Of a DNA stretch of 64,000 bases, positions 10,288 through 61,861 are shown in pieces. The translations under genes were made by a program, and so were the position numbers. The notes under the pieces are model-generated. The model searched no databases, was not told the DNA's origin, and was given only the letters and a program-made list of their open reading frames with translations. Source of the stretch: Microbispora catharanthi (lineage in GTDB: Bacteria > Actinomycetota > Actinomycetes > Streptosporangiales > Streptosporangiaceae); contig NZ_VDMA02000007.1 in the NCBI RefSeq assembly GCF_006334915.2, positions 186,001 through 250,000 on the forward strand. The letters run 5' to 3'. Each line of letters starts with the position of its first letter. The first letter of the stretch is position 1.

Positions 10288-10304
10288 CTCTATCACCGAT
10301 AGAG
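10288..10304. promoter_or_regulatory. tetO-like operator, distal copy
   Basis: CTCTATCACCGATAGAG, a 17-bp near-palindrome with one mismatched pair around the central C. It lies two bases from a second similar site, between the divergent TetR and the His-rich/reductase operon. Confidence 0.8.
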
Positions 10305-10306
10305 AA

Positions 10307-10323
10307 CTCTATCACTGATAGGG
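10307..10323. promoter_or_regulatory. tetO-like operator, proximal copy (same core as Tn10 tetO2)
   Basis: Read on the minus strand this is CCCTATCAGTGATAGAG, which from memory is identical to the 17-bp core of the Tn10 tetO2 operator. It sits directly upstream of a TetR whose recognition-helix region resembles classical TetR, arguing for autoregulation and control of the divergent operon. Confidence 0.82.
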
Positions 10324-10344
10324 TATGGAAGGGAGGTGCCGGAA

Positions 10345-44429: not shown

Positions 44430-45977
44430 TCAGCCCAGGGGGCCGACGGCGGACTCGGCGGCGGCGACCACGGCGCCGGTCTCGACGAGCCGGACGACCG
44501 CCTCGATCTCCGGTGCGAGGAAGCGGTCCGGCCCCGGCCCCGCCACCGGCTCGCGCAGCGCCTCGACCACCGCGCCCGTCCCCGGCGCGGGCGCGTACGG
44601 CCTGCGCAGGTCGAGCGCCCTGGCGGCGGTCAGCAGCTCGATCGCGAGCACGCGGGTGAGCCCGTCGACGGCGCGGCGCAGCTTGCGGCCCGCCGACCAG
44701 CCCATCGAGACGTGGTCCTCCTGCATGGCGGAGCTCGGGATCGAGTCCACGCTCGCCGGCACCGCCAGCCGCTTGAGCTCGGACACGATCGCCGCCTGCG
44801 TGTACTGCGCGATCATGTGGCCGGAGTCGACGCCCGGGTCGTCGGCGAGGAACGCCGGGAGGCCGTGGCTGCGCGCCACGTCCAGCATGCGGTCGGTGCG
44901 CCGTTCCGCGATCGACGCGAGGTCGGCCGCCGCGATGGCCAGGAAGTCCAGGACGTACGCCACCGGGGCGCCGTGGAAGTTGCCGTTGGACTCCACCCGC
45001 CCGTCGGCGAGCACCACGGGGTTGTCGATGGCGCTGACGATCTCGCGGGCGGCGACGGCGGACGCGTGGGCGAGGGTGTCCCTGGCGGCGCCGGCGACCT
45101 GGGGGGCGCAGCGCAGGGAGTAGGCGTCCTGGACGCGGGTGCAGGAGCCGTCGCGGTGGAAGGCCATCACGCCCGATCCGGCGAGCAGCGTCCGCATGTT
45201 GGCCGCCGCCAGGGCCTGGCCGGGATGGGGCCGCAGCGCCTGCAGGTCGGCCGCGAACACGTAGTCGGTGCCGAGCAGCGCCTCCACGCTCATCGCGGCG
45301 CTGATGTCGGCGGTGGTGAGGAGCCGGGACAGGTCGTGCAGCGCGAGCACCAGCATGCCCAGCATGCCGTCGGTGCCGTTGATCAGCGCGAGCCCCTCCT
45401 TGGCGGCCAGTTCGACGGGCTCGACGCCGTGTTCCTTGAGCGCCTCCGCGGTGGGCCGCAGGCGCCCCTCGGCGTCCCTCACGACGCCCTCACCCATGAT
45501 CGTCAGGGCGACGTGGGAGAGCGGGGCGAGGTCTCCCGAGCAGCCGAGGCTGCCGTACTCGTGGACGACCGGGGTGAGCCGGGCGTTCAGCAGGGACTCC
45601 AGCACCCGGGCCGTGGCCGGGCGCACACCGGTGTGCCCGGTGGCGAGCGTGCGCAGGCGCAGCAGCATCATGGCCCGCACGACCTCGGTCTCCACCTCGG
45701 GCCCGGAGCCGGCCGCGTGCGAGCGGATGAGGCTGCGCTGGAGCTGGGCGCGCAGCGAGGGGTCGATGTGCCGGGTGGCGAGGGCGCCGAAACCGGTGGA
45801 GACGCCGTAGGCCGGGGTGTCGGCCTCCGCGAGCTCCTCGACCCGCCCCCGCGAGGCGGCCATCTCGGCGATCGCGTCGTCCGTCAGACGGACCTGTGCG
45901 CCGTACCTCGCGACCCGGACCACGTCGTCGAAGGCGAGCGGTCCCGGGCCGACGGCCACGACCTCGTTGTCGTGCAT
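44430..45977 (-). CDS. hutH: histidine ammonia-lyase
   Basis: 515 residues, full-length HAL. The self-forming MIO site is Cys146-Ser147-Gly148 (GSLGCSGDLAPLSH), the actinobacterial variant of Ala-Ser-Gly. Further: TPAYGVSTGFGAL, NGTDGMLGML and VRSHGLPAFLADD-like (ARSHGLPAFLADDPG). Converts L-histidine to urocanate and ammonia. No other hut gene is adjacent. It ends 4 bp from the convergent dehydrogenase-RidA gene. Confidence 0.95.
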   Translation of the reverse strand: MHDNEVVAVGPGPLAFDDVVRVARYGAQVRLTDDAIAEMAASRGRVEELAEADTPAYGVSTGFGALATRHIDPSLRAQLQRSLIRSHAAGSGPEVETEVVRAMMLLRLRTLATGHTGVRPATARVLESLLNARLTPVVHEYGSLGCSGDLAPLSHVALTIMGEGVVRDAEGRLRPTAEALKEHGVEPVELAAKEGLALINGTDGMLGMLVLALHDLSRLLTTADISAAMSVEALLGTDYVFAADLQALRPHPGQALAAANMRTLLAGSGVMAFHRDGSCTRVQDAYSLRCAPQVAGAARDTLAHASAVAAREIVSAIDNPVVLADGRVESNGNFHGAPVAYVLDFLAIAAADLASIAERRTDRMLDVARSHGLPAFLADDPGVDSGHMIAQYTQAAIVSELKRLAVPASVDSIPSSAMQEDHVSMGWSAGRKLRRAVDGLTRVLAIELLTAARALDLRRPYAPAPGTGAVVEALREPVAGPGPDRFLAPEIEAVVRLVETGAVVAAAESAVGPLG

Positions 45978-46039: not shown

Positions 46040-46828
46040 TCAGCTTAGGTCCTTACATCCAAAGATCCTTTCCAGTCCCTCCCGCCCCGCGCCGGTCAGC
46101 CGCAGGGCGCGCGGCACGGTGCCGCGCACCAGCCACTCCCGTGCCAGGAGCCGGTCCAGGACCGCGGCGCCGAGCGCCCCGCCCAGGTGCGGGCGGCGCT
46201 CCAGCCAGTCGAGGCAGTCGGGGGCGAACCTGCGCCGGGCGCGGCGCACCCGCTCCACGTCCACGCCGAGCTCCGTCAGCGCCTCCGCGCCGCTCGCGGT
46301 CAGCAGGCAGCCGCCGTCGGCCTCGATCAACCCCCCCTCGCGCACCAGCGCGTCGTACAGTTCGACCCCCGCCCGGCCGGCCAGGTGGTCATAGCAACTG
46401 CGGGCCTCCCGCAGCAGCCGCGCCTGCCGCGACTGCCGCAGGGACCGTACGGCGACGCGCCCGCTGATCCGGGCCAGCACCTCCAGGGTGCGGGCGACGT
46501 CGGGGCCGGCGAGGCGGTAGTAGCGATGCCGTCCCTGTTTGACCACGGTCACCAGGCCCCCGTCGAGGAGCCGGGCCAGGTGGGAGCTCGCGGTGGGGGC
46601 GCTCACGCCCGCGATCCTGGCCAGCTCCCCCGCCGCCAGCGCCCTGCCGTCGAGCAGCGCGGTGAGCATGGCGGCGCGGGCGCCGTCGGCGATCAGGGCC
46701 GCGACGGGGGCGATGTCGGCGTCCCCCGCGATCTCGGCGTCCCCTCCGATCCCGGCCGTCCCGGGCTCAGGAGCGTCCCCGGCGGTGCCGGGGACAGCGG
46801 CGTGCGTGCGGTCATGTGTCACGGACAT
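46040..46828 (-). CDS. ArsR-family winged-helix regulator with extended C-terminus
   Basis: 262 residues, long for ArsR (about 110). Acidic low-complexity N-terminus (1-45), HTH ALAAGELARIAGVSAPTASSHLARLLDGG, KQGRHRYYRLAGPDV (winged helix), then a further 120 residues with DCLDWLERR, resembling the DUF-like tails of some actinobacterial ArsR. No metal-binding Cys pair is seen. Target unknown; hutH lies downstream in the same direction, 62 bp apart. Confidence 0.85.
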   Translation of the reverse strand: MSVTHDRTHAAVPGTAGDAPEPGTAGIGGDAEIAGDADIAPVAALIADGARAAMLTALLDGRALAAGELARIAGVSAPTASSHLARLLDGGLVTVVKQGRHRYYRLAGPDVARTLEVLARISGRVAVRSLRQSRQARLLREARSCYDHLAGRAGVELYDALVREGGLIEADGGCLLTASGAEALTELGVDVERVRRARRRFAPDCLDWLERRPHLGGALGAAVLDRLLAREWLVRGTVPRALRLTGAGREGLERIFGCKDLS

Positions 46829-47133: not shown

Positions 47134-47147
47134 CTTGGTTCGTCCAA

Positions 47148-47219
47148 GGGCGATTAGCTCAGCGGGAGAGCGCTTCCCTGACACGGAAGAGGTCACTGGT
47201 TCAATCCCAGTATCGCCCA
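47148..47219 (+). tRNA. tRNA-Val (anticodon GAC)
   Basis: 72 nt, acceptor GGGCGAT/ATCGCCC, anticodon stem CTTCC/GGAAG, loop CTGACAC with GAC. Differs from the CAC gene at 37286-37357 mainly in the anticodon arm. Confidence 0.95.
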
Positions 47220-47234
47220 CCAGAAAGTACGACG

Positions 47235-47263
47235 AAGGCCGGATTCCCCAGGAATCCGGCCTT
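47235..47263 (+). terminator. terminator of the Gly-Cys-Val tRNA cluster
   Basis: 13-bp stem AAGGCCGGATTCC with 3-base loop, followed by TTTCGG, 15 bp after tRNA-Val. Confidence 0.8.
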
Positions 47264-47601
47264 TCGGTCATACGCCCGGCATCCGCGTGCCCGCCCCGCC
47301 GGACTCCCACCTCCGCGCCCGCGGAAGCGCGACGCCCCTGCGGCCCGCACCGGTTCTGGAACCAAGATCCACCGCTACATACCCGATCCAGCCCATGTAA
47401 ATCGATTGCACCATTTGCGGGACGCTGTCGCAAAAACATCCCTATTCGGCCCAAGTAGGACATCGAGGTTGATTAAATAGCAACCTCGCGAGGCACGAAC
47501 ACGTCTTTGGGGATGACCACTATCGCTACACTTCCCTAACTGGGTGGCGATCCGTGAGGCAGGCAGCCCACCTACTATGAGCGAAGCGGTGGGATCCAGC
47601 G
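47264..47601. other. 338-bp intergenic region, lower GC
   Basis: No gene. GC is clearly lower at 47390-47540 (for example AAATCGATTGCACC and TTGATTAAATAGCAACC), so it is a good place for the promoter of the MFS gene. Confidence 0.45.
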
Positions 47602-48957
47602 ATGCACGGTGTGGCCCGGCGGCCTGGCCGCCCCAAGTTGGGGCGCAACTTCGGGCTACTGTGGTCGGGGTCCGTCATATCCCTGGTCGGAACGGTCAAC
47701 ACCACCGTCGCGGTCCCCCTTGTGGCGCTCATGCTCACCGGGTCCGCGTTCGACGCGGGTCTCACCGGGTTCGCCGGAACGCTGCCACGCCTCGTCATGC
47801 ACATTCCCGCCGGCTTCATCGCCGACCGGGTGGACCGACGCAAGGTGCTGGCCTTTGCCCAACTCGGGCGATTTGTGGTGGCCGTATCGGTCGGATTCGC
47901 GCTGTTGTCCGGGAATTGCACGATCGAGTGGCTGATCGTGGGGGTCGTCCTCGAAGGTTCCTTCGCCGCTTTCTTCGAAATCGCGGAGATGTCGATAGTG
48001 TCGCAGGTCGTCCGGAGGGACGATCTCGACGAGGCCTCGGCACGCAACGAGGGCCGCAATTTCGTGGCGACCCTCTCCGGGCGTCCCCTCGGCGGCGCGC
48101 TCAGCGCGCTGGGCGCGGGTTTCCCCTTCTTCGCCGCGGCGGGGGCGCTGCTGGTTTCGACGGGTCTCTTCTACCGGCTCGGCCGGCGGGATCCCCTCGT
48201 TCCGCTCCCGCCGCGCGACCGCACCACGGGGTTCCGGCGTCGGGCACTGGTCGGCTTCGGGATCCTCCGGGACGACCCGTTGCTCCGCCGTACGGTGGCG
48301 ATCTGCGCGCTCACCAACTTCCTGTTCCAGGTCGTCACCCTCGACATGATCGTGATGGCCAGGCAGGATCAGGTCTCGCCGGCCCTGGTGGGCGTTCTGC
48401 TCGCGGCCTCGGGGGTCGGCGGTCTGCTGGGCGCCTCGTTCGCGCCCAGGCTTCTCGGCTGGCTGAAACAGCCCGGCAGGGCCGTGAGCGCATGTGTCAT
48501 CAGCTGGTGGTTCGCCTTGTGCCTCTTCGCGGCTGTGCATCATCCGCTGGGATGGCTTCTCGCCTGGGCGGCGGTGGGATTCACCGGATCGCAGATGAGC
48601 GTGTTGCGCGGGACTTATCAGGCGACGGTCGTACGGCCGGAATGGCAGGGCCTGGTGAGCGGCTTCAACCAGTTCCTGACCCATGGCGCCGTCTTTCCGC
48701 TGGCGCACATCTTCGGCGGCGGTGCGATCGAGGCCCTCGGCCCGACGACGATCGCCGTGGCCACCGCCGGGACGGCGACCGCTCTCCTGGTGCTGAACAT
48801 CGCCAGGGGCTGGCACAACTTGCAGTGGAGCGACCAGAGCCTGCACAAACCCGGGCAGGCACCGTTGTGCCGGGAGGGCTCGGATAGGAGCATTGGCCCG
48901 TGGTTGTCTGGATCGGCCTTATCACGTCGCTCATCACCGGCACGAGTGCCGTCTTAG
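47602..48957 (+). CDS. MFS transporter (EntS/MFS_3-like)
   Basis: 451 residues, about twelve membrane spans. Family loop-2/3 motif GFIADRVDRRKVL near residue 72 and SARNEGRNF; the domain organisation resembles drug and siderophore exporters such as EntS. The C-terminal 40 residues are polar. Its 3' end overlaps the next gene by 58 bp. It is adjacent to the RiPP genes, so export or immunity is possible but unproven. Confidence 0.87.
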   Translation: MHGVARRPGRPKLGRNFGLLWSGSVISLVGTVNTTVAVPLVALMLTGSAFDAGLTGFAGTLPRLVMHIPAGFIADRVDRRKVLAFAQLGRFVVAVSVGFALLSGNCTIEWLIVGVVLEGSFAAFFEIAEMSIVSQVVRRDDLDEASARNEGRNFVATLSGRPLGGALSALGAGFPFFAAAGALLVSTGLFYRLGRRDPLVPLPPRDRTTGFRRRALVGFGILRDDPLLRRTVAICALTNFLFQVVTLDMIVMARQDQVSPALVGVLLAASGVGGLLGASFAPRLLGWLKQPGRAVSACVISWWFALCLFAAVHHPLGWLLAWAAVGFTGSQMSVLRGTYQATVVRPEWQGLVSGFNQFLTHGAVFPLAHIFGGGAIEALGPTTIAVATAGTATALLVLNIARGWHNLQWSDQSLHKPGQAPLCREGSDRSIGPWLSGSALSRRSSPARVPS

Positions 48958-49397
48958 CGGTGATCGCGACTCAGTCGGCCACGACGCGACGCGAAGCGGC
49001 GGCCAGGGAGCGAGAACGGCAGGACGCCGCGGATCGCGAGCGCAGGGGGCGGCACGAGCGGCTGATCGAGGCGGCCATGAAGCTGCGTGCCCACCTGGAG
49101 TTCATCGGAAGATCACGCTGGCCGGACATGGACGCGCGGCTCGCGCGGCTGGAGGAACTCGCCACCGAGGTCTCCGTCGCGTCGGGGATCACCGCCCGGC
49201 ACGAGGACCCGGACACCATCAGAGCGGCACGCGCTCTGTCGAAGATCGCCGTCGAGCTGGCCGCCGAGGTGGCCGCCGCCGTCGGTCCCGAAGGGGAACT
49301 GCGCAGCCTCATCCCCTTCGGGCCGTTCGATGAACGGCTGGACGAGTTCCTCGCGCTGGCAGGCCGCGGCTCAGCGGTCGTGCCCCTGGTCGAGTAG
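48900..49397 (+). CDS. small protein with N-terminal membrane span and coiled-coil
   Basis: 165 residues, not recognised. One hydrophobic segment (residues 2-23, WIGLITSLITGTSAVLAVI), then a strongly charged helical segment (ARERERQDAADRERRGRHER), a likely coiled-coil, and an Ala-rich helical tail. It begins within the end of the MFS gene, so it is translated from the same mRNA. Its own tail overlaps the convergent nSTAND gene by 27 bp. Confidence 0.7.
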   Translation: MVVWIGLITSLITGTSAVLAVIATQSATTRREAAARERERQDAADRERRGRHERLIEAAMKLRAHLEFIGRSRWPDMDARLARLEELATEVSVASGITARHEDPDTIRAARALSKIAVELAAEVAAAVGPEGELRSLIPFGPFDERLDEFLALAGRGSAVVPLVE

Positions 49398-51344
49398 GCG
49401 CCTGGCCGACTCCTTCTGCCGGGGAGACAGGGGCGGCTCCGTGGCGGCGATCGCCTGCCGGGCCAGCTCGGCCGCTTTGTCGCAGTCGCCGCTGAGGGTC
49501 TCGACCCGGGCGGCGTAGAGGAGGGCGGGCCCGTTCGTCGGCCCCTCCGCCACGATGGCGTCGACCTCACGCTCCGCCTCCGCGGGGCCGAGCTGTTCGA
49601 GGGTGGCCAGGGCCAGCGCACGGGCGGCCCGGGTCGCGGGCCAGGTGCGGCTGCTCACCCGCCGCAGGTCGCGCATGGCGGCCTCGGCACGGCCCTGCTC
49701 GGCGTTGAACTCCCCGCGCGCCCGCAGGGCCGTCAACTGATCGCCCTCGTCCCGCAGGACGCTGTCGAGTTCCGTCATCGCCCGGCTCCGGTGATCCGTC
49801 AGCCAGAGCGCACGCGCCAGCTCCGTGCGCAGGGCGAGGTCCCGCGGCAGGAGGCTCTTGGCCTCCTCGAATTTGCGCACCGCCGACGAAAGCTCGCCCA
49901 TCTGGGCCATCACCTGCCCGATCGCGCTCAGCATCCGGCCCGCCGCCGCGGAGTCGCCGAGGTCGGCATGGCACTGCAGCGCCAGCCGATACCAGGAGAG
50001 CGCCTTGTCGAGATGCTGCCGGACCGTCTCTTCCTGGTGCGCACGATCCGAAGGACTGTCCGCCTCGGAAAGGATCGCCTGCACGGCACGAGCGCGTTCG
50101 ATCTGGATGTCGCCGAGCAGGGTGTGGATCTCCGCCACCGATGTCGCCTCGGCGACTTCCAGGGCGTTGAAGGCCTGTTCTTCCGCGCCGTCCAGATCTC
50201 CCGCGGTGAGAGCGGTCACGGCGGATCCCACGCCTGCCCTTGTGCCGGGAGGAGCGATCGATTGAAGGCGGGTGAGGGCGGACCGGAAGTCGTCGTGCAG
50301 GAGGCGTATCCCGTCACCCAGAACCGACCGCAGGAGATGCCGGTCCTCGAGGGCGTGCACGATCGGGTTGCTCATCCCGGCGGTCTCCGCCGTCCCCTGT
50401 TTGACGGAGTGCCCGTCCGCGAAGGCCGCGACGGCCCACGCGTGCAGCGAGGCGGGATCCTGCCCGAAGGCGCCCCCCACCTCGGCGAGCACGCCGCTCA
50501 GGAAATACGCGAGGGCGTTCCCGGAGTCGGCGAGCCTGAAGACGTGCTCGGGGCGGATGAGCTGGAGCGTCGGGGGTAGCCTCGCCCAGAGCCACTGGCA
50601 GACGATCTGCAGGACGACCGGCTCGACCGCGTCACCGCCCAGTACGTCGAGGAGCTGGGCGGCGGCCTCCGAGGTGAACCTCCGCGCGGTCCCCTCGGCT
50701 GGACGGCGGATCGCGTCGAGCGCGGCCTCCGCGCCCAGGGGTCCGATCGTCAGCCATTCGGCGCGGCCGACCAGAGCGCCGTAGTGACCCAGGTCGTCGC
50801 GCCGGCTCTCCCGGACGACCAGGAGCAGCCGTAGCTCCGGATGGCTGTCGAGCGCGTCGACGAGCTCGTCGACAAACGGCTCCCGGAACTGCGCCCGATA
50901 GGGGCCGCCCAGGAAGAACTCCTCGAACTGGTCGACGGCGACGAGCAGCGGGCCGGGCTGCCGGCGGAGCAGGCGGGTCACATAGTCCGTCAGGCTCATG
51001 CCCGCCAGAACGCCGACGGGTTCCAGCGGCGCCAGTGTGGTGAGCAACGAGAGCGTCCAGGGGTTGTGGCCGGGCGGAAGGGCCGCGACCGGACCGCCGA
51101 TGAATCGGCCCACCCGCCCGACGCGCGCGTGCGGGAGTCCCGGGAGCACGCCTGCCTGGAGCAGCGATGTCTTGCCCGATCCGGTGTCGCCGCTGAGGAC
51201 CGTCAACGGAAACCGTGACCACGACCGGGTCAGTTCCCGTGACTCCTCGGCCCGGCCGAAGAAGACCGCGGCGTCGGCCGTCTGGAAAGGGCTGGCTCCG
51301 GGATAGGGATGCCGTCGGCTCCCAGGAGCGTCATGAGCGCTCAT
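49371..51344 (-). CDS. nSTAND-type ATPase with C-terminal TPR-like repeats
   Basis: 657 residues. N-terminal YPGASPFQTADAAVFFGR leads to Walker A GDTGSGKTS at 52-60, Walker B LLVAVDQFEEFF near 131-142, RESRRDDL, and a winged-helix-like region to about residue 380. The last 280 residues are helical repeats with TPR-like spacing (QMGELSSAVRKFEEAKSLLP, DLALRTELARALWL). nSTAND proteins act as signalling switches. ATG at 51344 lies inside the precursor gene, 14 bp before its stop, so synthesis is coupled to the precursor. Confidence 0.87.
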   Translation of the reverse strand: MSAHDAPGSRRHPYPGASPFQTADAAVFFGRAEESRELTRSWSRFPLTVLSGDTGSGKTSLLQAGVLPGLPHARVGRVGRFIGGPVAALPPGHNPWTLSLLTTLAPLEPVGVLAGMSLTDYVTRLLRRQPGPLLVAVDQFEEFFLGGPYRAQFREPFVDELVDALDSHPELRLLLVVRESRRDDLGHYGALVGRAEWLTIGPLGAEAALDAIRRPAEGTARRFTSEAAAQLLDVLGGDAVEPVVLQIVCQWLWARLPPTLQLIRPEHVFRLADSGNALAYFLSGVLAEVGGAFGQDPASLHAWAVAAFADGHSVKQGTAETAGMSNPIVHALEDRHLLRSVLGDGIRLLHDDFRSALTRLQSIAPPGTRAGVGSAVTALTAGDLDGAEEQAFNALEVAEATSVAEIHTLLGDIQIERARAVQAILSEADSPSDRAHQEETVRQHLDKALSWYRLALQCHADLGDSAAAGRMLSAIGQVMAQMGELSSAVRKFEEAKSLLPRDLALRTELARALWLTDHRSRAMTELDSVLRDEGDQLTALRARGEFNAEQGRAEAAMRDLRRVSSRTWPATRAARALALATLEQLGPAEAEREVDAIVAEGPTNGPALLYAARVETLSGDCDKAAELARQAIAATEPPLSPRQKESARRLLDQGHDR

Positions 51345-51546
51345 CGGCCGGGTCGGCCCCATCACGCCGCGCCGGACCCGCGACGGACTGGAAGCCGGCG
51401 ACGGGCGCCGCCGACTTGGTGTCGGCGAGGATCCTTTGCAACGCGAGGAACAGGGCGGAGTCGTCGCAGCTGTCCAGCGTTTTCGGATCGAGTTTCGGCA
51501 GACCGATCGTCCCGGAGCGCTGAATAACGGCCTGTTCGAACACCAC
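51331..51546 (-). CDS. fxsA: FxsA-like RiPP precursor with internal FQS motif
   Basis: 71 residues. N-terminal half is the leader (LPKLDPKTLDSCDDSALFLA, typical of FxsA: LDDSxLxxAL then a RIL motif), followed by AAPVAGFQSVA at about 47-56 with Phe52, Gln53 and Ser54. FxSxx proteins normally end two residues after the Ser; here GPARRDGADPADERS follows before the stop. GTG at 51546 or 51543, with GGGAG upstream. The stop is inside the next gene. The assignment rests on the leader, the motif and the neighbourhood, so it is an inference, not a search result. Confidence 0.75.
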   Translation of the reverse strand: MVFEQAVIQRSGTIGLPKLDPKTLDSCDDSALFLALQRILADTKSAAPVAGFQSVAGPARRDGADPADERS

Positions 51547-51776
51547 GCCACTCCCGCCCGATTAATCCGATTCACAGGTCCTGAGATCTCATAGACCGTA
51601 TCTAAACTATAGGCATCCTTCCCGCGGGTGTCGAGACGGGCGTCCACCAGGAACGCTCCGATTTGGCCGACCCTATTGCATTGTCTACAGAGGCCGAAAA
51701 AAGCGATCCAAGAATGTGGGCGGCAAAGGTTGCATACTGAAGAACAATAGACTTCTTCACGGGTAGGAGGACGCTG
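51547..51776. promoter_or_regulatory. divergent promoter region, AT-rich for this genome
   Basis: 230 bp between the divergent precursor and FxsT-like genes. Its GC is far lower than flanking DNA (for example ACTATAGGCATCC and GAACAATAGACTTC). The FxsT-like gene start has TAGGAGG at 51763-51769. Confidence 0.55.
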
Positions 51777-54293
51777 GTGCCGGCGCTTGAGACCCCTGGT
51801 CCGGAACCTCGCATCTGGGGAAGTCGCATTCCGCTTCGCAACGCGAACTTCACGGGCCGCGAGGCGGCTCTCCGTGAGTTGCGCGAGCAGATGTTCGAGG
51901 GGCCGACCGCGATCCTCCCGCATACTCTGCGCGGCATGGGGGGCGTCGGCAAGACGCAGCTCGTCATCGAATACGCGCATCGGTTCAAGGGCGACTACGA
52001 CGTCGTCTGGTGGATCGCCTCCGACATCCCCCTGCTCATTCCCGGCGCGCTGGGCGCGCTGGCGGAGAAGCTGGGCCTCCCGCCCGCCAAGGTCGTCGGC
52101 ATCGACGAGGCGAGTCGTTCCGTGCTGGACGCTCTGCGCAGGGGCGACCCCTACAAGCGCTGGCTCCTGATCTTCGACAACGTCAACAAGGCCGAGGACA
52201 TCATGGAGCTGATCCCGGCCGGGCGACCGGAACAGGGACATGTACTGATCACCTCGCGCAACCCTCGCTGGGAGGGCGTCGCCAACACCATGGTGATCGA
52301 CGTCTTCGATCGCGAGGAGAGCATCGAATTCCTCGGCAAGCGCGCCGGGAGGATGACGCCGGAGGAGGCCAGGCAGCTCGCCCACGAGCTCGGCGATCTC
52401 CCGCTGGCCCTGGAGCAGGCCGGGGCGTTGCAGGTGGAAACGGGCATGTCCACCGAGGAGTACCTGGATCTGCTGCGCAGGCAGCCGCTCGAGGTGATGG
52501 ACGAGAACCAGCCGATGGAGTACCCGCGGTCGATGACCGCGGCGTGGCGTCTGTCGATCAACGCCCTCGAGGACCAGCTGCCGGAGGCCCTGCAGGTTCT
52601 CAGGTGCGCCGCCTTCTTCGGCCCCGAGCCGATTCCCATCGACCTGTTCCGCTGGGGAAGCTCCGGGGGTGTGGGCCCGCTGCTCGCCCCCATCCTCGGC
52701 AACCCGATCCTCCGCACGCGGGCGCTTCGCGCGATCAACAACTTCGCCCTCGGGCGGATCGACGACCGCGCCATCCAGATCCACCGGCTGGTCCAGAGGC
52801 TGCTCAGGGCCGACCTCGAGCCTGAGCAGAAGCAGGTGTACGTACGCGAGGCGCAGATGCTGCTCGCCGCCGCGAGCGGGCTCCAGCCGGAGGACGAGGC
52901 CAACTGGGGCGTCTTCAGCAGGTTCGTGCCCCATCTCGACCCCGTCGGCGCCGCGACCACGACGAACGGCCGACTGCGCGATCTCGCCCTCAACGTCGTC
53001 CGCTACCTCTACCTCATCGGTGACACGGAGTCGGCCCGGAGCTTCGCGGCCAGGTTCAGGGACGACTGGAGCCACTTGTCCGGCGTGGACGACCGCCACG
53101 TCCTGACCGCGGAACACCACCTGGCCAACAGCCTCCGGCAGGACGGGCGTTTCGACGAGGCGTTCACCCTCCTCGAGGGGACGCTGAAACGGGGGCGGCG
53201 CGTTCTCGGCGAGGACGACGACGTGGTGCTGCTCCTGACCAACTCGTTCGGGGCCAGCCTGCGGGCCAAGGGCATGTTCAGGGAGGCCGTCGCCCACGAC
53301 GAGGACTCACGGCGCCGGCATGCGAAGAAGTACGGGGAGGACGACCCCCGCACCTTGCGCACGATCAACAACCTGGCCCTCGGCTACGCGCTCGTGAGCG
53401 ACTACGACAAGGCGGTCGAGCTCCAGACGCAGGTCCACGAGGTTCGCAACAGGCCGGGAGTCGGCAGCAAGCTGGACCTGCTCGTCTCCTTGGGAGGCCT
53501 GTGCCAGGCCGTCCGCCTGAACGGGGATTACCAGGCGGCGTACTACCTCGGCGTCGACGCCCTGGAGTACGGCAGGGGCGAAGTAGGCGTGGACCACGTC
53601 CACACCTTGGCGGTCGCGGTCGACCTCGCCATCGCCATGCGACGGCTGGGCCGGATCGAGGACGCGCTGGAACTGGCCCGCGACACCTACAACCGGTATG
53701 AGTCGATCCTGACGGCCGCTCACCCGCACACGGTGTCGGCGGCGATTTGCCTGGCCAACGCGCTGCGGACCGACGGCCGGCTCAAGGACGCCCTGGCGTT
53801 GACCCGGGTCATCGCGGACGGATTGCCGCGCATCTACGGGCCCGGCCACCCGTTCACGGTGGCGGCGCGCGGCAACCTCGCCCTTCTGCAGCGCGTCAAC
53901 GGCGACCCGGCGGCGGCCAGGACGCTCAACGAGCACGTCCTCGAGAGCCTCGACGAGACCCTGGGCCGAAAGCACCACTACTCGTTGACCGTCGCCATGA
54001 ACCTGGCCAATGATCGGCACGAGCTCGGTGAGCACGAAGCGGCACTCGATCTGGACACGCAGACCCACGCACTCCTGCAGGAGCTGCTCGGCGCCGAGCA
54101 TCCGATGACCCTCGGGTCGGCCGCGAACCTGACCGACAGCCTGAGGACGGCGGGCAAGACCGAGGACGCGCACGCCCTTCACAGGGCGACACTCGCCGTC
54201 TACGACAGGAGACTGGGCGTCCGGCATCCCGACACCGTCCTGGCGAGGTCGGGCGGCCGCCTGGACTTCGACTTCGATCCCCCTCGCTTCTGA
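51777..54293 (+). CDS. fxsT: FxSxx-system tetratricopeptide protein, FxsT-like (NB-ARC + TPR)
   Basis: 838 residues. N-terminal NB-ARC-like NTPase with Walker A GMGGVGKT at 53-60, Walker B region WLLIFDNVNK and GLPLALEQAGA-like (GDLPLALEQAG). The rest, from about 400, is a run of TPR repeats (for example FDEAFTLLEGTLKRGRRVLG and YDKAVELQTQVHEV). The C-terminus is FDFDPPRF. GTG start at 51777 after AGGAGGACG. The exact role of FxsT in the pathway is unknown; signalling or an adaptor for the maturation complex is possible. Confidence 0.85.
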   Translation: MPALETPGPEPRIWGSRIPLRNANFTGREAALRELREQMFEGPTAILPHTLRGMGGVGKTQLVIEYAHRFKGDYDVVWWIASDIPLLIPGALGALAEKLGLPPAKVVGIDEASRSVLDALRRGDPYKRWLLIFDNVNKAEDIMELIPAGRPEQGHVLITSRNPRWEGVANTMVIDVFDREESIEFLGKRAGRMTPEEARQLAHELGDLPLALEQAGALQVETGMSTEEYLDLLRRQPLEVMDENQPMEYPRSMTAAWRLSINALEDQLPEALQVLRCAAFFGPEPIPIDLFRWGSSGGVGPLLAPILGNPILRTRALRAINNFALGRIDDRAIQIHRLVQRLLRADLEPEQKQVYVREAQMLLAAASGLQPEDEANWGVFSRFVPHLDPVGAATTTNGRLRDLALNVVRYLYLIGDTESARSFAARFRDDWSHLSGVDDRHVLTAEHHLANSLRQDGRFDEAFTLLEGTLKRGRRVLGEDDDVVLLLTNSFGASLRAKGMFREAVAHDEDSRRRHAKKYGEDDPRTLRTINNLALGYALVSDYDKAVELQTQVHEVRNRPGVGSKLDLLVSLGGLCQAVRLNGDYQAAYYLGVDALEYGRGEVGVDHVHTLAVAVDLAIAMRRLGRIEDALELARDTYNRYESILTAAHPHTVSAAICLANALRTDGRLKDALALTRVIADGLPRIYGPGHPFTVAARGNLALLQRVNGDPAAARTLNEHVLESLDETLGRKHHYSLTVAMNLANDRHELGEHEAALDLDTQTHALLQELLGAEHPMTLGSAANLTDSLRTAGKTEDAHALHRATLAVYDRRLGVRHPDTVLARSGGRLDFDFDPPRF

Positions 54294-54321
54294 CTCCGCC
54301 CGCGCGACCCCGGCCTCGCCC

Positions 54322-55635
54322 TCAGTCGAAGCCGGGATTGCGCTCCAGCCACCGGCGCCGATGCTCCTGGGACACCCGGCGCACGGCGGAGGCCACGGTC
54401 GCGGGCACGTGATCCGCGGACCAGGACTCCAGCGTCTTGAGCATCACCGAGACGAAGATCCTGCCTTCGTGGTTCAGGTCGCCGGTGTCGAGGAGCGTGG
54501 TCGCGACCAGTTCGGCCGCCTCCCGCCAGCGGGCGAACTCGAAATGCGCCGCCTCGGCCGCCTCCCCGGCCTGCAGGTGGCGTTGCCGGCGCCAGAACCG
54601 GGTGACGCCGAGGAACGCGTAGCTGCCCTGGAGCAGCCCCTCGACCGGCCGCGGGTCCTCCCGCCAGGGCGCGTAGTAGCGGGTGCCCCGATCGGGACCG
54701 ATGAGCCGGACGATGTCGAGGACGGCGCACAGCTTGACGTGCTGCACCTCGTGCGTGAGCGTCAGCGCGGTCATGAGACGGTCCCGCGTGAACGACAGCG
54801 CGACACAGCCGAACGTCTCCCGGGAGCTCGCGCTGCGCAGCCCGACGGGCACGGGCGTCAACGGGGTGATCGTGGTCACGAGGGACCGGACCTCCTCGGC
54901 CGGCACGGGGTGATGCTCGGTGAGGAGCCCCCACGCGTCGTCCAGAGCTTCACGCCAGCCGGCCACGACGTCGCCGGGCAGCCGGTCCTCCAGGTCCTCC
55001 CCGGGCATCCGCGCCGGGTGCAGGTCGTCCAGGAGGAGGGAGATCCGCGTGTCGGTGTCTCCGAGCCCGAGCGTCCGCATGCCGAGCCAGCCGGGCGCGT
55101 CACAGGACGCGTCGGCGGGTATGCGGATCCGCTCCTCGCCCACCTCCACGAGAGCCCTGCCGTGCTCGACCGTGACCATGCCCATCCGGTCGGTCGCCAC
55201 CGAGGTCGTGGAGCCCACCGTCGGAAGGAGGACCCGGCCCGCCATGGTCGGGACCCGTATCCGGCAGGGCCGTCCGGTCCGTACGGCGATCGCGGCCACC
55301 ACGGCGGCGAGCTGCCCGGGGCGGGCGCACGACGCGCCCGCCCGCAGATCGCGGATGGTGCTCAGCGCCCACGCGGAGACGGCGGGGTTGGAGACGACGT
55401 CGATGGCGATCGCGGGGTGGCGGCGCAGGAAGTGCGTCAGCAGATCGTAGGCCTGCGCCGTGATCGGGGCGTCGGGGTGATCGATGCCGCGGGTGAGACG
55501 CTCGATGCCCCACAGGAGGAGCGCCTGCTTGCTGCGCTGGGCCGCGACGAGCTCGCGGAGTATCTCCGGCGTGGAATCCCCGGTGGCGAGGAGCATGAGG
55601 GCGTCCTCGGACAGCTCGTGGCAGGGAAGGCTCAT
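54322..55635 (-). CDS. HExxH-motif peptide hydroxylase-like protein (aKG-HExxH type)
   Basis: 437 residues. HEVQH at His295-His299 in ALTLTHEVQHVKL, near GPDRGTRYYAPWREDPRP, a pattern of the TIGR04267-type family associated with RiPP clusters. Known members with this motif act as iron- and 2-oxoglutarate-dependent peptide beta-hydroxylases rather than proteases. The N-terminal 250 residues are of mixed sequence. The ATG overlaps the maturase stop (ATGA), so the two are made together. Here it is separate from the maturase; in some systems the two parts are fused. Confidence 0.82.
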   Translation of the reverse strand: MSLPCHELSEDALMLLATGDSTPEILRELVAAQRSKQALLLWGIERLTRGIDHPDAPITAQAYDLLTHFLRRHPAIAIDVVSNPAVSAWALSTIRDLRAGASCARPGQLAAVVAAIAVRTGRPCRIRVPTMAGRVLLPTVGSTTSVATDRMGMVTVEHGRALVEVGEERIRIPADASCDAPGWLGMRTLGLGDTDTRISLLLDDLHPARMPGEDLEDRLPGDVVAGWREALDDAWGLLTEHHPVPAEEVRSLVTTITPLTPVPVGLRSASSRETFGCVALSFTRDRLMTALTLTHEVQHVKLCAVLDIVRLIGPDRGTRYYAPWREDPRPVEGLLQGSYAFLGVTRFWRRQRHLQAGEAAEAAHFEFARWREAAELVATTLLDTGDLNHEGRIFVSVMLKTLESWSADHVPATVASAVRRVSQEHRRRWLERNPGFD

Positions 55636-56834
55636 CTCCACGCCTCCAGGTCGCGTTCCATCGTCCGCCGGATGTGGTCGATCAGAGCGCGGAGATCGGT
55701 GCAGTAGACGGACGGATTCTTGAAGCCGTTTCCCGCCCGGTAGCGGTGCGCGTAGAGGCCCGCGCCACACACCTCCACCACAGGGCAGGCCAGGCACTCC
55801 GCTGACATGGCCGTCAATCCGATCTGGCGGGCGGCGAAGCCCGGGAGGGCGAGCGCTCGATCGAGGGGGTCGGTGCGCACGTGCAGACCGGTGACGGTGG
55901 CGCCGTCGTACGCGGCCTTGAGGTAGTCGGACTGCTCGATCGAGCCGTCCGTCTCGATGACGAGGACTCCGACGGGCGACAGACCGATGCTTTCGAGGCC
56001 GGACGCGCCCCCCAGGAGCAGGTGCATGATTTCGGCGAACAGCCGGATCGACGTTCGCGGGCGCCGGTACCAGTGGTCGAAGATCTCGATCAGCCAGTCG
56101 GCGTAGGGCGTGGACGCGTCGGGGGGCCGTCCCGGCGGGGGATCGGACCAGGTGCCGTGGGGCAGCAGGAAGTCGATGCTCGGCGGCTCGAACTCCAGCA
56201 ACGCCTCGTATGTGGAGAGCGGGTCGTTCCTGAGATCGATCGTGCAGAGCAGGCCGGCGAACAGACGGCTGTGATCGGCCGTGAGCCGCCGTAACGACTC
56301 GACGACCCGGCCATGGCTCGACTCCCCGTTGCGGAAAAGCCGGTGGCGGCCGGTGGCCGTGGCGTCTCCGTCCAGGCTCACGCCTATTCGGACATTCAAT
56401 TCGTCGAATAAGGCGAGGTACTCATCGGAGAGGCGCAGCCCGTTCGTCTGAATGGTAATGCGTACGGGGCAGTCGACGCCGGTTCGCAGGATTTCGACCA
56501 GCGCCCTTATTCGTTCGGACCCGGCCAGCAGCGGTTCCCCGCCGTGGAACACGACCTCGACGGAGGACAGCCGGTGTGCGCGGACGTGCTCGCCGATCCG
56601 GCCGGCCGTCCACCTCGCCACCGCCGTGGACATGGAGCGGGGCTGGTCCACCCAGCGCGAGTCCTTGAGTTCGTACATGTAGCAGTAGCGGCACGCGAGG
56701 TCGCACCTGCTGTGGATCTTCAGCACGAAGGTCTGGAACGGCGTGGGACGCCAGCCCTCATCATGAAGTCCGGCAACGTCGAGAGTTGCTGGCCATTCCG
56801 CGCCCGGGGGGGATGCCGCGAGGTCCACTGCCAC
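55632..56834 (-). CDS. fxsB: FxsB-type radical SAM/SPASM cyclophane maturase
   Basis: 400 residues. Radical SAM motif C44-x3-C48-x2-C51 (SRCDLACRYCYMYE), FHGGEPLLAG, IQTNGLRLSDEY and GVSLDGDATATGRH. C-terminal SPASM cysteines include Cys347, Cys350, Cys356 and Cys378. The length is below the fused FxsB forms. GTG at 56834, or GTG at 56828. The ribosome-binding site is weak. Upstream is an AT-rich stretch with no other gene, a good promoter. Confidence 0.87.
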   Translation of the reverse strand: MAVDLAASPPGAEWPATLDVAGLHDEGWRPTPFQTFVLKIHSRCDLACRYCYMYELKDSRWVDQPRSMSTAVARWTAGRIGEHVRAHRLSSVEVVFHGGEPLLAGSERIRALVEILRTGVDCPVRITIQTNGLRLSDEYLALFDELNVRIGVSLDGDATATGRHRLFRNGESSHGRVVESLRRLTADHSRLFAGLLCTIDLRNDPLSTYEALLEFEPPSIDFLLPHGTWSDPPPGRPPDASTPYADWLIEIFDHWYRRPRTSIRLFAEIMHLLLGGASGLESIGLSPVGVLVIETDGSIEQSDYLKAAYDGATVTGLHVRTDPLDRALALPGFAARQIGLTAMSAECLACPVVEVCGAGLYAHRYRAGNGFKNPSVYCTDLRALIDHIRRTMERDLEAWR

Positions 56835-56976
56835 CTGTTCGCACGCGTCGGGTCGTCACGCCATGAAGTGCTCGATTTCGCTTCTAATAGTTTACGCCCG
56901 ACCGCCGAATAAAACATCTTTTTGTTGTTATGGCCGCATTACCGGGACGAGGCGGCAGTCGCAGGGCGCGGCCGTA

Positions 56977-57008
56977 AGGCCGCCCGCCATGGCCTGGTCG
57001 GGCGGCCT
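56977..57008. terminator. hairpin after the small ORF
   Basis: 10-bp arms AGGCCGCCCG and CGGGCGGCCT with a 12-base loop, 15 bp past the stop of the 57024 gene on the minus strand. Not followed by a T-run. Confidence 0.5.
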
Positions 57009-57023
57009 CTGGTGGGCCTGCGG

Positions 57024-57257
57024 TCAGTCGGCGCTGGCGGAGAGCTCGTCGAAGAGCTCCAGCGCCGCCTGACGAACGTCTGCGGGTGAGATGCCGTCTA
57101 GGGTGCTGCGGGCCTGAGCGGCGTCACGGGTCGTGGCGAAGGTGATCGCGACAGACTTGGCGGCGGCGTGACGCAGCGATCCGGTTGGCGCGCTGTCGGC
57201 CAGTGCCTCCGCGCTCGCGGCCAGGTCGAGGTTGTCTTTGCCGAACTTAGTGGTCAA
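57024..57257 (-). CDS. small helical protein, unknown
   Basis: 77 residues, Ala-rich, predicted helical (KFGKDNLDLAASAEALADSA). TTG start at 57257 has AGGAG six bases upstream. No motifs. Probably monocistronic. It lies upstream of the fxsB promoter on the same strand but separated by a hairpin, so a link to the RiPP genes is weak. Confidence 0.6.
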   Translation of the reverse strand: MTTKFGKDNLDLAASAEALADSAPTGSLRHAAAKSVAITFATTRDAAQARSTLDGISPADVRQAALELFDELSASAD

Positions 57258-57361: not shown

Positions 57362-58129
57362 TCACTCCCCCGATGGGCGTCCGGCGAGGCGGCTCCGAAC
57401 GACGAGGTCGTGCAGGGCGTCGTGGGCCGACGGGGCGTCCGGCAGCGCGGAGGCGTCCCGGGCGTCCTCCAGGCGGGCGGTGAGCGCGTCGAGGTCGGCC
57501 GCGAGCCGTTCCCCGCCGGGCGCGCCGTCCGGCAGCCCGCCGTGCTCGGCCGCCCGCTTGGCCTCCACCAGGCCGGGCAGGTACGGCGGCCCGCCGTCGA
57601 GGAGCAGGGTGAGATCGGCGACGAGCTCGCCCGTACGCATGAGGTGGATGCCCGTCAGCAGCACCCGGAACGCGTAGAGCAGCGGCTTCAGCTCCCCCGT
57701 GCGGTCGGACAGCCGCCGCTGGGTGCGGGCGAAGCCGAGGTAGTGGTGGGCGTGGTGCCGGGTCAGGCAGCCCCGCGCGAGGGCGCGCATCTCCTCGTGC
57801 AGCGGGGAGGTGGTCACGACCAGCGGCGACAAGAGCTGCTCCAGCACGTAGCCGTTGCGGCCGAGCAGGAGCCGGCAGAACTTGGCGAGGTCGTGGGTCA
57901 CGAGGTCGACCTCCACGCCCTCGCGAATCCACGAGCGGGTCACGGTCTCCTCACCCGTGCGCAGCCCGACGACCTCCTCGGCCGGCAGTATGTGCACGCC
58001 CCGCAGGTCCACGTCCGAGTCCACCGAGGGGAACCCGTACAGATGCGCGCCGCTCACGGTGGCGAACGCGAGCGGGTGCCGCTCACCCGCGGCCACCTCG
58101 GGCAGCCAGGACGGCAGGACGGCGGTCAC
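57362..58129 (-). CDS. nucleotidyltransferase-superfamily protein (PF10127-like)
   Basis: 255 residues. Nucleotidyltransferase core: ATVSGAHLYGFPSVDSDVDLRGV, where GS..G..S..DxDxRG is the family pattern; the second acidic strand is EVDLVTHDLAKF. Partner helical domain follows. Function of YcgL-like proteins is unknown; some are toxin-like or modify RNA. GTG at 58129. Paralog of the next gene, 22 bp away. Confidence 0.85.
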   Translation of the reverse strand: MTAVLPSWLPEVAAGERHPLAFATVSGAHLYGFPSVDSDVDLRGVHILPAEEVVGLRTGEETVTRSWIREGVEVDLVTHDLAKFCRLLLGRNGYVLEQLLSPLVVTTSPLHEEMRALARGCLTRHHAHHYLGFARTQRRLSDRTGELKPLLYAFRVLLTGIHLMRTGELVADLTLLLDGGPPYLPGLVEAKRAAEHGGLPDGAPGGERLAADLDALTARLEDARDASALPDAPSAHDALHDLVVRSRLAGRPSGE

Positions 58130-58151
58130 GGCGCCCCTCCTTCGATCATGC

Positions 58152-58829
58152 TCATAGAGCCGACCTCCGCACGTCGATCAGGAACTCCTCCACGGCCGCC
58201 CGGTCCGGTCGTCCGGGCAGCGCGCTCCCGGGCCGCTCGTCCAGCTCGGCGAGCAGCCGCCCACGCCACTCCAGCACCTCGGGCCAGGGCGTCTCCCCCC
58301 GCCGTACGGCGAGCAGCCGGTCGCGGTGGGCGCCCACCTCGATCAGTGGCTCCCCGTGCCCGGCCAGGTGGGCGGCGCACAGCAGCAGCCGGATCATGTG
58401 CATGGCCATCTTCCAGCGCCTGACGTCGCCGCCCGGCCGGGGCGGGTCCTCCGGCCCGAGACGGCGGAACTGCCGGGCGGCCGATCCCGCGAACGCCCGC
58501 TCCGCCTTCCCAGAGAGGAACGCGCGGCGCAGCGCCAGCAGCCGCTCACCCACCGGGGTGACCAGCTCCACCAGCGGCGACCACAGGCACTCCAGCGCGG
58601 CCGGATTGCCCTCGAGCGCGAGCACGCAGAACCGCTCGACCTCCCACGAGAACTGCTCGGGCAGCGGCCCCTCCACGTGGTCCGGCGGCTTGTCGAGCCG
58701 CCAGAACAACGGAGTGGGCGTCACGAACACGCCCCGCCTGTCGACGTCCGACTGCTCGGTCTCCAGCCCGTACGCGCGCGAGCCGATGACGACCGACAGG
58801 ACGGTGCCGCCGGGGGCCATCGGGGTCAT
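58152..58829 (-). CDS. nucleotidyltransferase-superfamily protein, paralog
   Basis: 225 residues; same family as its downstream neighbour: VVIGSRAYGLETEQSDVDRRGVF. DHVEGPLPEQFSWEVERF has the second acidic strand. ATG at 58829 or 58820. The two genes are cotranscribed; divergence of the sequences is large, so the duplication is old. Confidence 0.83.
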   Translation of the reverse strand: MTPMAPGGTVLSVVIGSRAYGLETEQSDVDRRGVFVTPTPLFWRLDKPPDHVEGPLPEQFSWEVERFCVLALEGNPAALECLWSPLVELVTPVGERLLALRRAFLSGKAERAFAGSAARQFRRLGPEDPPRPGGDVRRWKMAMHMIRLLLCAAHLAGHGEPLIEVGAHRDRLLAVRRGETPWPEVLEWRGRLLAELDERPGSALPGRPDRAAVEEFLIDVRRSAL

Positions 58830-58890
58830 GTCGCCGGATCTTGTCACGAAGGTAGGCTCCCGGTCCGGGACGCGGAAAGGTAGCGATTTA

Positions 58891-60384
58891 ATGGCCGACT
58901 TCGGACATGAGCTGTGGTTCGGGGCGTTTCTCACGCCCGACGCGGCGGGGCACCACCGGATCGTCCGGCAGGCCGTGCTGGCCGACGAGATCGGGCTCGA
59001 CATCATCGGCATCCAGGACCACCCCTACCTGCCGGCGTTCCTCGACACCTGGACGCTGCTGTCCACGCTCGCGGGGCGCACCGAGCGGGTGCGGCTGTTC
59101 CCCGACGTGGTGAACCTGCCGCTGCGGCCGCCGGCGGTGCTCGCCAGGGCCGCCGCGTCCCTCGACATCCTGAGCGGGGGCCGGGTCGAGCTGGGGCTCG
59201 GCTCCGGGGCGTTCTGGGACGGCATCGCGGCCATGGGCGGCCCGCGCCACAGCCCCGGCGAGGCCGTGGACGCGCTGGAGGAGGCCATCGCGGTCCTCCG
59301 CGCGCTGTGGACCCCGGGTGACGAGGGCGTACGGCTCGACGGCAGGCACTACCGGCTGGAGGGCGCGCGGCCGGGGCCGTTCCCCCCGCATCCGATCGGG
59401 CTGTGGCTCGGCGCGTACAAGCGGCGCATGCTGGAGCTGACCGGGCGGCTCGGCGACGGATGGGTGCCCTCCTCCGGGTATGCCGCGCCCGGCGAGCTGG
59501 GCGCGATGAGCGCGATCCTGGACGCCGCGGCCGAGCGGGCCGGGCGCGACCCCGCCGGGATCCGCCGCGTCTACAACATCGAGGGCCGGTTCTCCGGCGT
59601 CGCCGGGAAGGGGTTCCTGGACGGGCCGCCGGCCCTGTGGGCCGAGCAGCTCACCGGACTCGCGCTCCGCCACGGCATGAGCGTGTTCGTGCTGGCCGTG
59701 GACGACGACAGGGACCTCAAGGTCTTCGCCGAGGAGGTCGCCCCCGCCGTACGCGAGGCGGTGTCGCGGGAGCGCGCCCGGGGGCCACGGGAGGACGCCG
59801 ACGGCCCGATCGAGCTCGCGAAGGCGACACCGGCGAGGGCGGTGCTCGACGAGGCCACCCGGCCACGGCTGCCCAAGCGGGACATCGCCGCGCTCCCGGC
59901 TCGGCAGCAGGCGAACGGCCGGCGGCTCGTGCTCATCCACGACCACCTGCGCCGGGAGCTGACCCAGATCAGGGACGCCCTGGAGCAGGTCGCCGCGGGA
60001 CGCTCCGACGCCGCCGCGCTCCGCTCCATGATCAACGAGCTCACCCTGCGGCAGAACTACTGGACGCTCGGCACGTTCTGCGCGTCGTACTGCCGCCTGC
60101 TGACCACCCACCACACCATCGAGGACGAGCACATGTTCCCGATGCTGGCGGCGGCGCAGGAGTCGCTGGCGCCGGTCGTGGCCCGCCTGGAGCAGGAGCA
60201 CGAGGTAATCGCCGGCGTGCTGACGGAGCTGGACGCCGCCCTCGTCGCGATGATCGAGGACCCGGATCGGCTCGACGCCGTGCGCGACCGGGTGGACCTG
60301 CTGTCGGACGTGCTGCTGTCGCACCTGCGCTACGAGGAGGAGGAGCTCGTGGAGCCCATCGCCCGCCTCAACCTCGACATCTGA
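58891..60384 (+). CDS. LLM flavin-dependent monooxygenase fused to hemerythrin-like domain
   Basis: 497 residues. N-terminal luciferase-like domain (about 1-300): LWFGAFLTPDA, VELGLGSGAFWDG and GWVPSSGYAAPGELG, as in F420/FMN-dependent LLM enzymes. A linker of about 40 residues follows. The C-terminal domain (about 345-497) is hemerythrin-like: LIHDHLRRE near residue 351, HHTIEDEHMFPM, EQEHEVIAG and SHLRYEEEELVEP provide the His/Glu ligands of a di-iron site. It may combine a flavin oxidation with oxygen or NO sensing, or protect against it. ATG at 58891. Divergent from the nucleotidyltransferase pair. Confidence 0.87.
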   Translation: MADFGHELWFGAFLTPDAAGHHRIVRQAVLADEIGLDIIGIQDHPYLPAFLDTWTLLSTLAGRTERVRLFPDVVNLPLRPPAVLARAAASLDILSGGRVELGLGSGAFWDGIAAMGGPRHSPGEAVDALEEAIAVLRALWTPGDEGVRLDGRHYRLEGARPGPFPPHPIGLWLGAYKRRMLELTGRLGDGWVPSSGYAAPGELGAMSAILDAAAERAGRDPAGIRRVYNIEGRFSGVAGKGFLDGPPALWAEQLTGLALRHGMSVFVLAVDDDRDLKVFAEEVAPAVREAVSRERARGPREDADGPIELAKATPARAVLDEATRPRLPKRDIAALPARQQANGRRLVLIHDHLRRELTQIRDALEQVAAGRSDAAALRSMINELTLRQNYWTLGTFCASYCRLLTTHHTIEDEHMFPMLAAAQESLAPVVARLEQEHEVIAGVLTELDAALVAMIEDPDRLDAVRDRVDLLSDVLLSHLRYEEEELVEPIARLNLDI

Positions 60385-60520
60385 GAACCCTGGACATCTG
60401 AGAACGGCTCCGAACCCCCGGCGACGGAGTGTTCACGGAGAGACGTGTTTCGCACCAAAGGACGACGCGGTTCTGGAATGATCTCGAGGAAAACCATCGG
60501 ACGTCGAGAGACCGTGACTG

Positions 60521-61777: not shown

Positions 61778-61861
61778 CGGGGAGTCTGCCCGGCTTCACC
61801 GACGGGAAGGGGGCGGCGGGACCGGACGGACCGGTCCCGCCGGCCTGTATGAGCCGGGATT

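Follow-up and report, generated by a model that had tools for sequence, protein, structure and literature searches.

A 64,000-nucleotide stretch of Microbispora catharanthi contig NZ_VDMA02000007.1 (186,001-250,000 of the forward strand; here the window, its first letter being position 1) carries a locus for an FxSxx-type ribosomally synthesized and post-translationally modified peptide (RiPP). Such gene clusters are common in actinobacteria; the locus is a tail-bearing variant of this known kind that lacks a SIR2 gene, and two STAND ATPases, FxsT and an nSTAND1-TPR protein, lie on either side of its small precursor gene. The precursor tail and the lack of SIR2 are what set the window copy apart, and both traits recur in relatives. 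We give roughly even chances to a reading in which the locus makes a three-residue cyclophane, a chemistry taken from homologues, within a two-ATPase STAND module, and in which the modified peptide would gate a defence switch, a function suggested by the genes around it.

FxSxx cyclophane peptides are not known to us to have an assigned role in the cell, and the subtype linked to nSTAND makes such a role directly testable: in 63 of 80 related loci a third slot is filled by a ThsA-like SIR2 protein or by a small, probable membrane protein. These loci were chosen by nSTAND match, with the 78 that rank highest below the window itself plus two weaker ones from the same genus, and they come from 66 genomes in 23 genera. 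If the peptide does gate STAND ATPases, RiPP chemistry would join bacterial innate immunity and reach beyond antibiotic chemistry.

An earlier, sequence-only reading had placed five genes within 49371-56834, and all five are found there. Its observation is confirmed and its interpretation is partly supported. The radical SAM/SPASM enzyme, the HExxH hydroxylase-like protein, the FxsT-like NB-ARC/TPR protein and the nSTAND-TPR ATPase all exceed the cut-offs of the corresponding family models, as given in the list that follows. The maturase is thus an FxsB and not a member of a different SPASM family, and the 71-residue open reading frame (ORF) resembles FxsA-like precursors.

47602-48957, plus strand: major facilitator superfamily (MFS) transporter (Pfam MFS_1, 89 bits); candidate exporter or immunity factor
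48900-49397, plus strand: Mem165, a small helical-bundle protein whose N-terminus is hydrophobic, tail-to-tail with nSTAND; candidate effector
49371-51344, minus strand: nSTAND1-TPR ATPase, 657 residues (Pfam nSTAND1, PF20703, 107 bits, cut-off 27.1; TPR)
51331-51546, minus strand: FxsA-like precursor, 71 residues (profile of 35 relatives, 27.8 bits); GTG start at 51546 or 51543
51379-51393, minus strand: core motif F-Q-S-V-A, read directly and aligned with relatives' cores; predicted Phe-Ser three-residue cyclophane site
51334-51378, minus strand: 15-residue C-terminal tail past the core, read directly
51547-51776, no strand: divergent intergenic region between precursor and FxsT (nSTAND and FxsT divergent in 80 of 80 loci)
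51777-54293, plus strand: FxsT, NB-ARC and TPR ATPase, 838 residues (NF040586, 929 bits, cut-off 300; Pfam NB-ARC and TPR_12)
54322-55635, minus strand: stand-alone aKG-HExxH-type peptide hydroxylase homologue, 437 residues (TIGR04267, 161 bits, cut-off 40; HEVQH motif)
55632-56834, minus strand: FxsB radical SAM/SPASM cyclophane maturase, 400 residues (TIGR04269, 461 bits, cut-off 370; CDLACRYC motif)
47270-57021, no strand: the whole unit as one island with approximate borders, between tRNA-Val (47148-47222) and a conserved 77-residue ORF (57024-57257)

The precursor peptide and its enzymes

The precursor is real but divergent, since the profile of 35 precursors from related loci that gives it 27.8 bits gives 11.1 bits to the best of 2000 shuffles, 7.4 to the next of 321 ORFs in the window and 10.0 to the next stop-to-stop stretch. 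The earlier proposal of a peptide with an F-x-S motif therefore holds as far as likeness to FxsA is concerned. It does not hold for the NCBIfam model TIGR04268, where the precursor reaches 14.8 bits and the cut-off is 28, nor for the position of the motif, as 15 residues (GPARRDGADPADERS) come after FQSVA. By the strict definition, the window peptide is not FxSxx-COOH. A protein search returned one homologue of the precursor (P0001), which is 97% identical, also has 71 residues, and retains the tail with one change. This homologue has a precomputed Pfam label (PF27839.1), and a Pfam run on the window ORF gave no such label. A frameshift that lost a canonical stop after FQSVA was considered; none of the frames inspected by eye ended canonically, and the tail is retained in P0001. 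The 3' end of the precursor gene overlaps the nSTAND gene, with the precursor stop codon lying within the nSTAND start.

Tailed precursors occur elsewhere. Among 77 precursors (76 from relatives and that of the window), 62 end precisely at residue five (the aromatic being residue one), 12, the window's included, run on for 1 to 23 residues, two are short, and one has no aromatic. Tails of 4 to 23 residues past the core are found in eight loci (L048, L052, L053, L058, L060, L062, L067 and L183); the tailed precursors of L052, L053, L058, L060 and L067 have FxQxx cores, and these loci form one SIR2 lineage in the nSTAND tree. The core itself is also variable. Among the 76 precursors that have an aromatic, Ser occupies the third position in 38, Asn in 18, Ala in 12, Gln in 7 and Asp in 1, and His takes the place of Phe in three. 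The last core residue, Ala in the window, is I, V, L, Y or F in 61 of the 62 exact cores. In triceptides, it is the third residue whose beta carbon is cross-linked. Such a link agrees with the variety at this position and with the tails more readily than would an absolute requirement for Ser or for a free C-terminus. Of the cores of L193, L203, L211, L201 and L055, three have His for Phe (GHDSSI once and GHQSSV twice), one ends in FQD, and one has no aromatic.

Of the two modifying enzymes, FxsB scores 259 bits against the radical SAM domain of ChlB (PDB 9gm3), and this closeness leads one to expect a Phe-Ser cyclophane. The HExxH protein scores 148 bits against PDB 22nu and weakly (23 bits) against ChlH (8s5f); the NCBIfam name of its family, TIGR04267, is aKG-HExxH-type peptide beta-hydroxylase. 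Many FxsB matches across the sampled genomes of the host's family sit in open frames longer than 700 residues. The 9.25-Mb host genome holds a single FxsB above the cut-off. HExxH and FxsB were each detected in 63 of the 80 loci, figures that are partly lowered by the ends of stretches and contigs. In nine loci (L065, L182, L183, L188, L195, L197, L206, L208 and L214), FxsB adjoins FxsT and has no HExxH match next to it. In another five (L037, L038, L040, L044 and L045), a pair of FxSxx systems is arranged head to head, with an FxsB on the minus strand beside a second FxsB and an HExxH gene on the plus strand.

Layout, third slot and genomic island

The coupling of nSTAND to the peptide genes was followed in 297 genomes of the host's family. 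With thresholds of E<=1e-30 for nSTAND and E<=1e-60 for FxsB, nSTAND relatives occur in 119 genomes and FxsB in 199, and 116 of the 119 nSTAND-positive genomes are also FxsB-positive. The converse fails: no nSTAND match at this threshold is present in 83 of the 199 FxsB-positive genomes, so that the second TPR ATPase is not part of all FxSxx systems. In every one of the 80 loci, FxsT lies divergently beside nSTAND, and a precursor match lies between the two in 76. The sequence-only reading had described a divergent layout and taken the gene set, with its second TPR ATPase, to be non-standard. Neither the layout nor the second ATPase is unusual, as the layout is common to all 80 loci and the second ATPase is a fixed part of the subtype. 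A scan of genome contigs gave 49 distant nSTAND relatives, which were not used further.

Read directly, the nSTAND protein of the window has a Walker A motif, GDTGSGKTS, and a Walker B motif, LLVAVDQFEEFF. Its frame is open for 1308 residues, but a single protein of this length is rejected since the upstream part runs antisense to FxsT; the true start is the ATG at 51344 or that at 51362. Three loci (L058, L060 and L067) have a second FxsT-like stretch (210-221 bits) and an extra SIR2 match past FxsT and on the same strand.

The third slot is where the loci differ. A SIR2 gene lies between precursor and nSTAND in 44 of the 80, and the gap from nSTAND to FxsT in SIR2 loci is about 1.3-1.6 kb in total (4.7 kb in L053). 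All 11 SIR2 proteins scanned match the Pfam SIR2_2 and ThsA models, and their best solved relatives include ThsA structures; for the remaining loci, SIR2 was called by a profile of these 11. At E<=1, that profile matches nothing in the window. In another 19 loci the neighbour of nSTAND is a small protein, hydrophobic at its N-terminus and with charged helices; in 14 of them it belongs to the Mem165 family, which is convergent with nSTAND, and in 5 to a second family (Mem2), which is on the nSTAND strand. SIR2 and Mem or Mem2 are never found together. The Fisher p for this exclusion, 7e-9, is not a count of independent events, and it overstates the exclusion because the Mem type lies in one clade. 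In a quick nSTAND tree, all 19 Mem rows (the window and 18 loci, one short row being left out) fall in a starred clade of 24 rows that holds five 'none' rows and no SIR2. A single clade agrees with one ancient exchange that was preserved while the sequences diverged strongly, and the SIR2/Mem swap may have been such an exchange, in one direction or the other. Many relatives carry either SIR2, a predicted NADase, or, like the window, a gene for a small, probable membrane protein, a hint that the peptide may be part of a switch for defence of the cell. The ThsA-like SIR2 of the 44 loci strengthens the earlier suggestion that product formation is tied to sensing or defence.

Mem165 has no NCBIfam, Pfam or PADLOC match. 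Its hydrophobic N-terminus is read in the sequence, and the relatives show moderate hydropathy peaks. An AlphaFold2 model with a mean predicted local distance difference test (pLDDT) score of 84.9 has helices at residues 5-70, 77-99, 104-127 and 141-153; the N-terminal helix is long, with low pLDDT for residues 1-20. The protein is putatively membrane-anchored.

Comparison with congeners shows the extent of the unit. The stretch to its right (57900-61800) is matched in all 15 genomes of the genus, the host's own included, and the same site was fetched from 7 of the 14 others. There is no trace of the unit at the site in six of the seven (blastn, and tblastn with seven proteins, E<=1e-10). In the seventh (L179), an MFS fragment is fused directly to sequence matching the right-hand end of the unit, a deletion scar. 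These empty sites and the scar indicate that roughly 47.27-57.0 kb acts as one unit. Because these 9.7 kb behave in this way, the MFS gene and the small gene are counted in, and the cluster is wider than the five-gene interval first proposed. The GC content of the island is 68.9%, that of its flanks 72.1% and 72.6%. By alignment ends, four of the other congener sites hold about 0.6 to 0.7 kb of other content and L180 holds 3.9 kb. FxsB is found elsewhere in the genome in 11 of the 14 other congeners and, for the seven fetched sites, not at tRNA-Val.

Integration at tRNA-Val with border repeats was considered, with integrase genes outside the search, and no such repeats were found: 47141-47320 and 56651-57120 share no exact repeat of at least 10 bp, and the final 16 bases of the tested tRNA stretch occur once in the window. 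The tRNA-Val site is variable in the genus, as seen in L174 (other content at 9711-10452) and L180 (9937-13791). To the left of the island, an aromatic amino acid lyase gene (44430-45977) and an ArsR/HTH_20-type regulator gene (46040-46828) adjoin a tRNA-Gly/Cys/Val cluster. To its right is a tandem pair of genes (57362-58129 and 58152-59012) for RlaP-type RNA repair nucleotidyltransferases.

Possible roles of the modified peptide

In the reading to which we give even chances, FxsB would join Phe52 and Ser54 of the precursor by a cross-link, and an oxidative modification would come from the separate HExxH protein, both steps being predicted from homologues. The modified peptide would be kept in the cell as a ligand or inhibitor of FxsT, of the nSTAND1-TPR ATPase, or of both. 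A disturbance, most plausibly phage infection, would move the ATPases to an active state in which they could turn on an effector, the ThsA-like SIR2 NADase in most relatives and perhaps Mem165 in the clade of the window. Growth arrest, cell death or membrane damage would follow. A more particular version, which we put forward only tentatively, makes the cyclophane peptide the regulatory ligand of a two-ATPase, NLR-like immune switch with an exchangeable killer (SIR2 NADase or Mem165), and has the stand-alone HExxH protein remove or use the tail. HExxH relatives have been described that oxidatively remove a C-terminal tetrapeptide, small residues favouring removal (passages of PMC12636437). By analogy, and as speculation, the A-G step ahead of the window tail could be a comparable site.

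A number of observations weigh against a peptide-gated defence switch. The window precursor is below the TIGR04268 cut-off, some of the precursor matches in relatives are weak (12-16 bits), and in the nine loci named above FxsB has no adjoining HExxH match. PADLOC has no match for the nSTAND, FxsT, HExxH or Mem165 proteins of the window, and its only matches to FxsB are weak ones to viperin models, as a radical SAM relative. The third slot is less regular than a simple two-way choice, for 17 of the 80 loci have neither SIR2 nor Mem or Mem2, the 19 Mem loci pool two sequence families that differ in strand, and the nSTAND tree needs only seven changes for its three labels. In that tree, the window nSTAND sits on a long end branch within the Mem-type clade, and its exact placement is unsure. 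Three SIR2 loci (L063, L064 and L070) have a different hydrophobic protein of 274-276 residues, in another sequence cluster than Mem165, tail-to-tail with nSTAND, which weakens the idea of a simple replacement of SIR2 by a membrane-type gene. The Mem165 model has no fold match in the PDB at E<=0.001, and the membrane location assigned to the protein is itself a prediction. In another family of the same class (f17), SIR2 is found in 8 of 12 nSTAND loci, FxsT in 5 and a precursor match in none, with only about 1.5 kb covered upstream; within so short a reach, SIR2-type loci of the host's family may also miss FxsT. For example, L221, L224, L229, L231 and L233 of f17 are SIR2-nSTAND pairs where no FxsT or precursor was found within a 5-kb stretch. 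In 43 of the 80 loci, the 3' side of nSTAND has an MFS gene no more than 900 bp away, which fits an exported product as well.

Such a product would be a secreted cyclophane peptide, an antibiotic or signal exported by the MFS protein, with the STAND ATPases as regulators of production or assembly factors. We consider this unlikely, although it has a known parallel in darobactin, a cross-linked RiPP that is an antibiotic (as described in PMC9055067). The transporter is also consistently placed: in the first 40 loci (739 kb), a profile built from the MFS proteins of these same loci gave 20 matches at the spot 3' of nSTAND and one elsewhere. Against such a product, 37 of the 80 loci have no MFS match within 900 bp. 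At E<=0.01 Pfam finds no DNA-binding domain in either ATPase, no peptidase is seen among the genes scanned with Pfam, and the ThsA-like SIR2 between precursor and nSTAND in 44 loci does not suit an export system.

A different role for the HExxH protein follows from the toxin model of Kaur et al. 2020, proposed in PMC7159879, in which it acts as a metallopeptidase and releases a peptide from the C-terminus; this peptide would itself be the effector and would amplify the ATPase response. The HEVQH motif is intact, and a related HEXXH enzyme, PflC, is able to cut the peptide backbone (passages of PMC12636437). The NCBIfam name of the family speaks for a hydroxylase instead, as does the report in the same passages that a radical-SAM-fused member hydroxylates Asp and His after cross-linking. 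The model also leaves SIR2 and Mem without explanation, and it seems to us quite doubtful for the window.

It is more improbable still that the window copy is decaying and that its precursor, with a divergent leader, an Ala at the last core position and a run-on tail, is no longer processed. The sub-threshold TIGR04268 score, the unusual Ala, the long branch of the nSTAND row and the deletion scar in another congener would all suit decay, but every large gene is intact, motifs included, 11 other precursors are tailed too (by 1 to 23 residues), and the 97%-identical homologue of 71 residues has a tail of the same length. That nSTAND, SIR2 or Mem, and MFS are chance passengers of a hypervariable site next to the FxSxx genes, as the variable setting beside tRNA genes and the f17 loci might suggest, is hardly credible given one nSTAND/FxsT orientation in all 80 loci across 23 genera, the joint presence of nSTAND and FxsB in 116 of 119 genomes, and the overlap of the precursor and nSTAND genes in the window.

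Relation to known systems

The nearest comparison is with FxSxx-COOH RiPP systems. FxsB, FxsT and HExxH pass the cut-offs of the models for these systems, and the precursor leader and F-x-S core align with those of relatives. Unlike them, the window precursor fails TIGR04268 and has a 15-residue tail, and HExxH is a separate protein, in contrast to the many family FxsB matches found in the long frames noted above. ChlB/ChlH resembles the window in the radical SAM domain and, weakly, in the HExxH protein. It is one fused protein (PMC12636437, in part), whereas the window has separate enzymes and two STAND ATPases; the PMC12636437 passages cited here give no account of STAND genes beside ChlB.

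Two comparisons bear on the defence side. The SIR2 gene of 44 of the 80 relatives is ThsA-like (11 proteins scanned, the others called by profile), as in Thoeris. In contrast to Thoeris, the window has no SIR2, and the partners are RiPP enzymes and STAND ATPases rather than ThsB. The nSTAND1 NTPases that Kaur et al. 2021 (sections of PMC8195603) describe from predicted counter-invader systems belong to the same ATPase family, PF20703, whereas the window nSTAND has no N-terminal effector domain and is coupled to a RiPP precursor. The terms 'FxSxx' and 'radical SAM' do not occur in the main text of PMC8195603. None of the open-access papers searched joins nSTAND, SIR2, radical SAM and a peptide; subscription papers were outside the search, so the SIR2/nSTAND link may already be published.

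FxSxx-type peptides coupled to AP-ATPases were predicted by Kaur et al. 2020 to act as a toxin or signal in conflict systems (section of PMC7159879 on these systems). That section does not present nSTAND1 as a fixed partner, and the words 'SIR2' and 'FxsA' are absent from the main text of the paper. The VMAP ternary systems described there differ from the window, where Pfam finds no vWA or MoxR domain in the genes of the unit. What the window shares with these AP-ATPase peptide-processing systems is the precursor type, the radical SAM-SPASM enzyme, the zincin-like HExxH-type protein, and an AP-ATPase with TPR.

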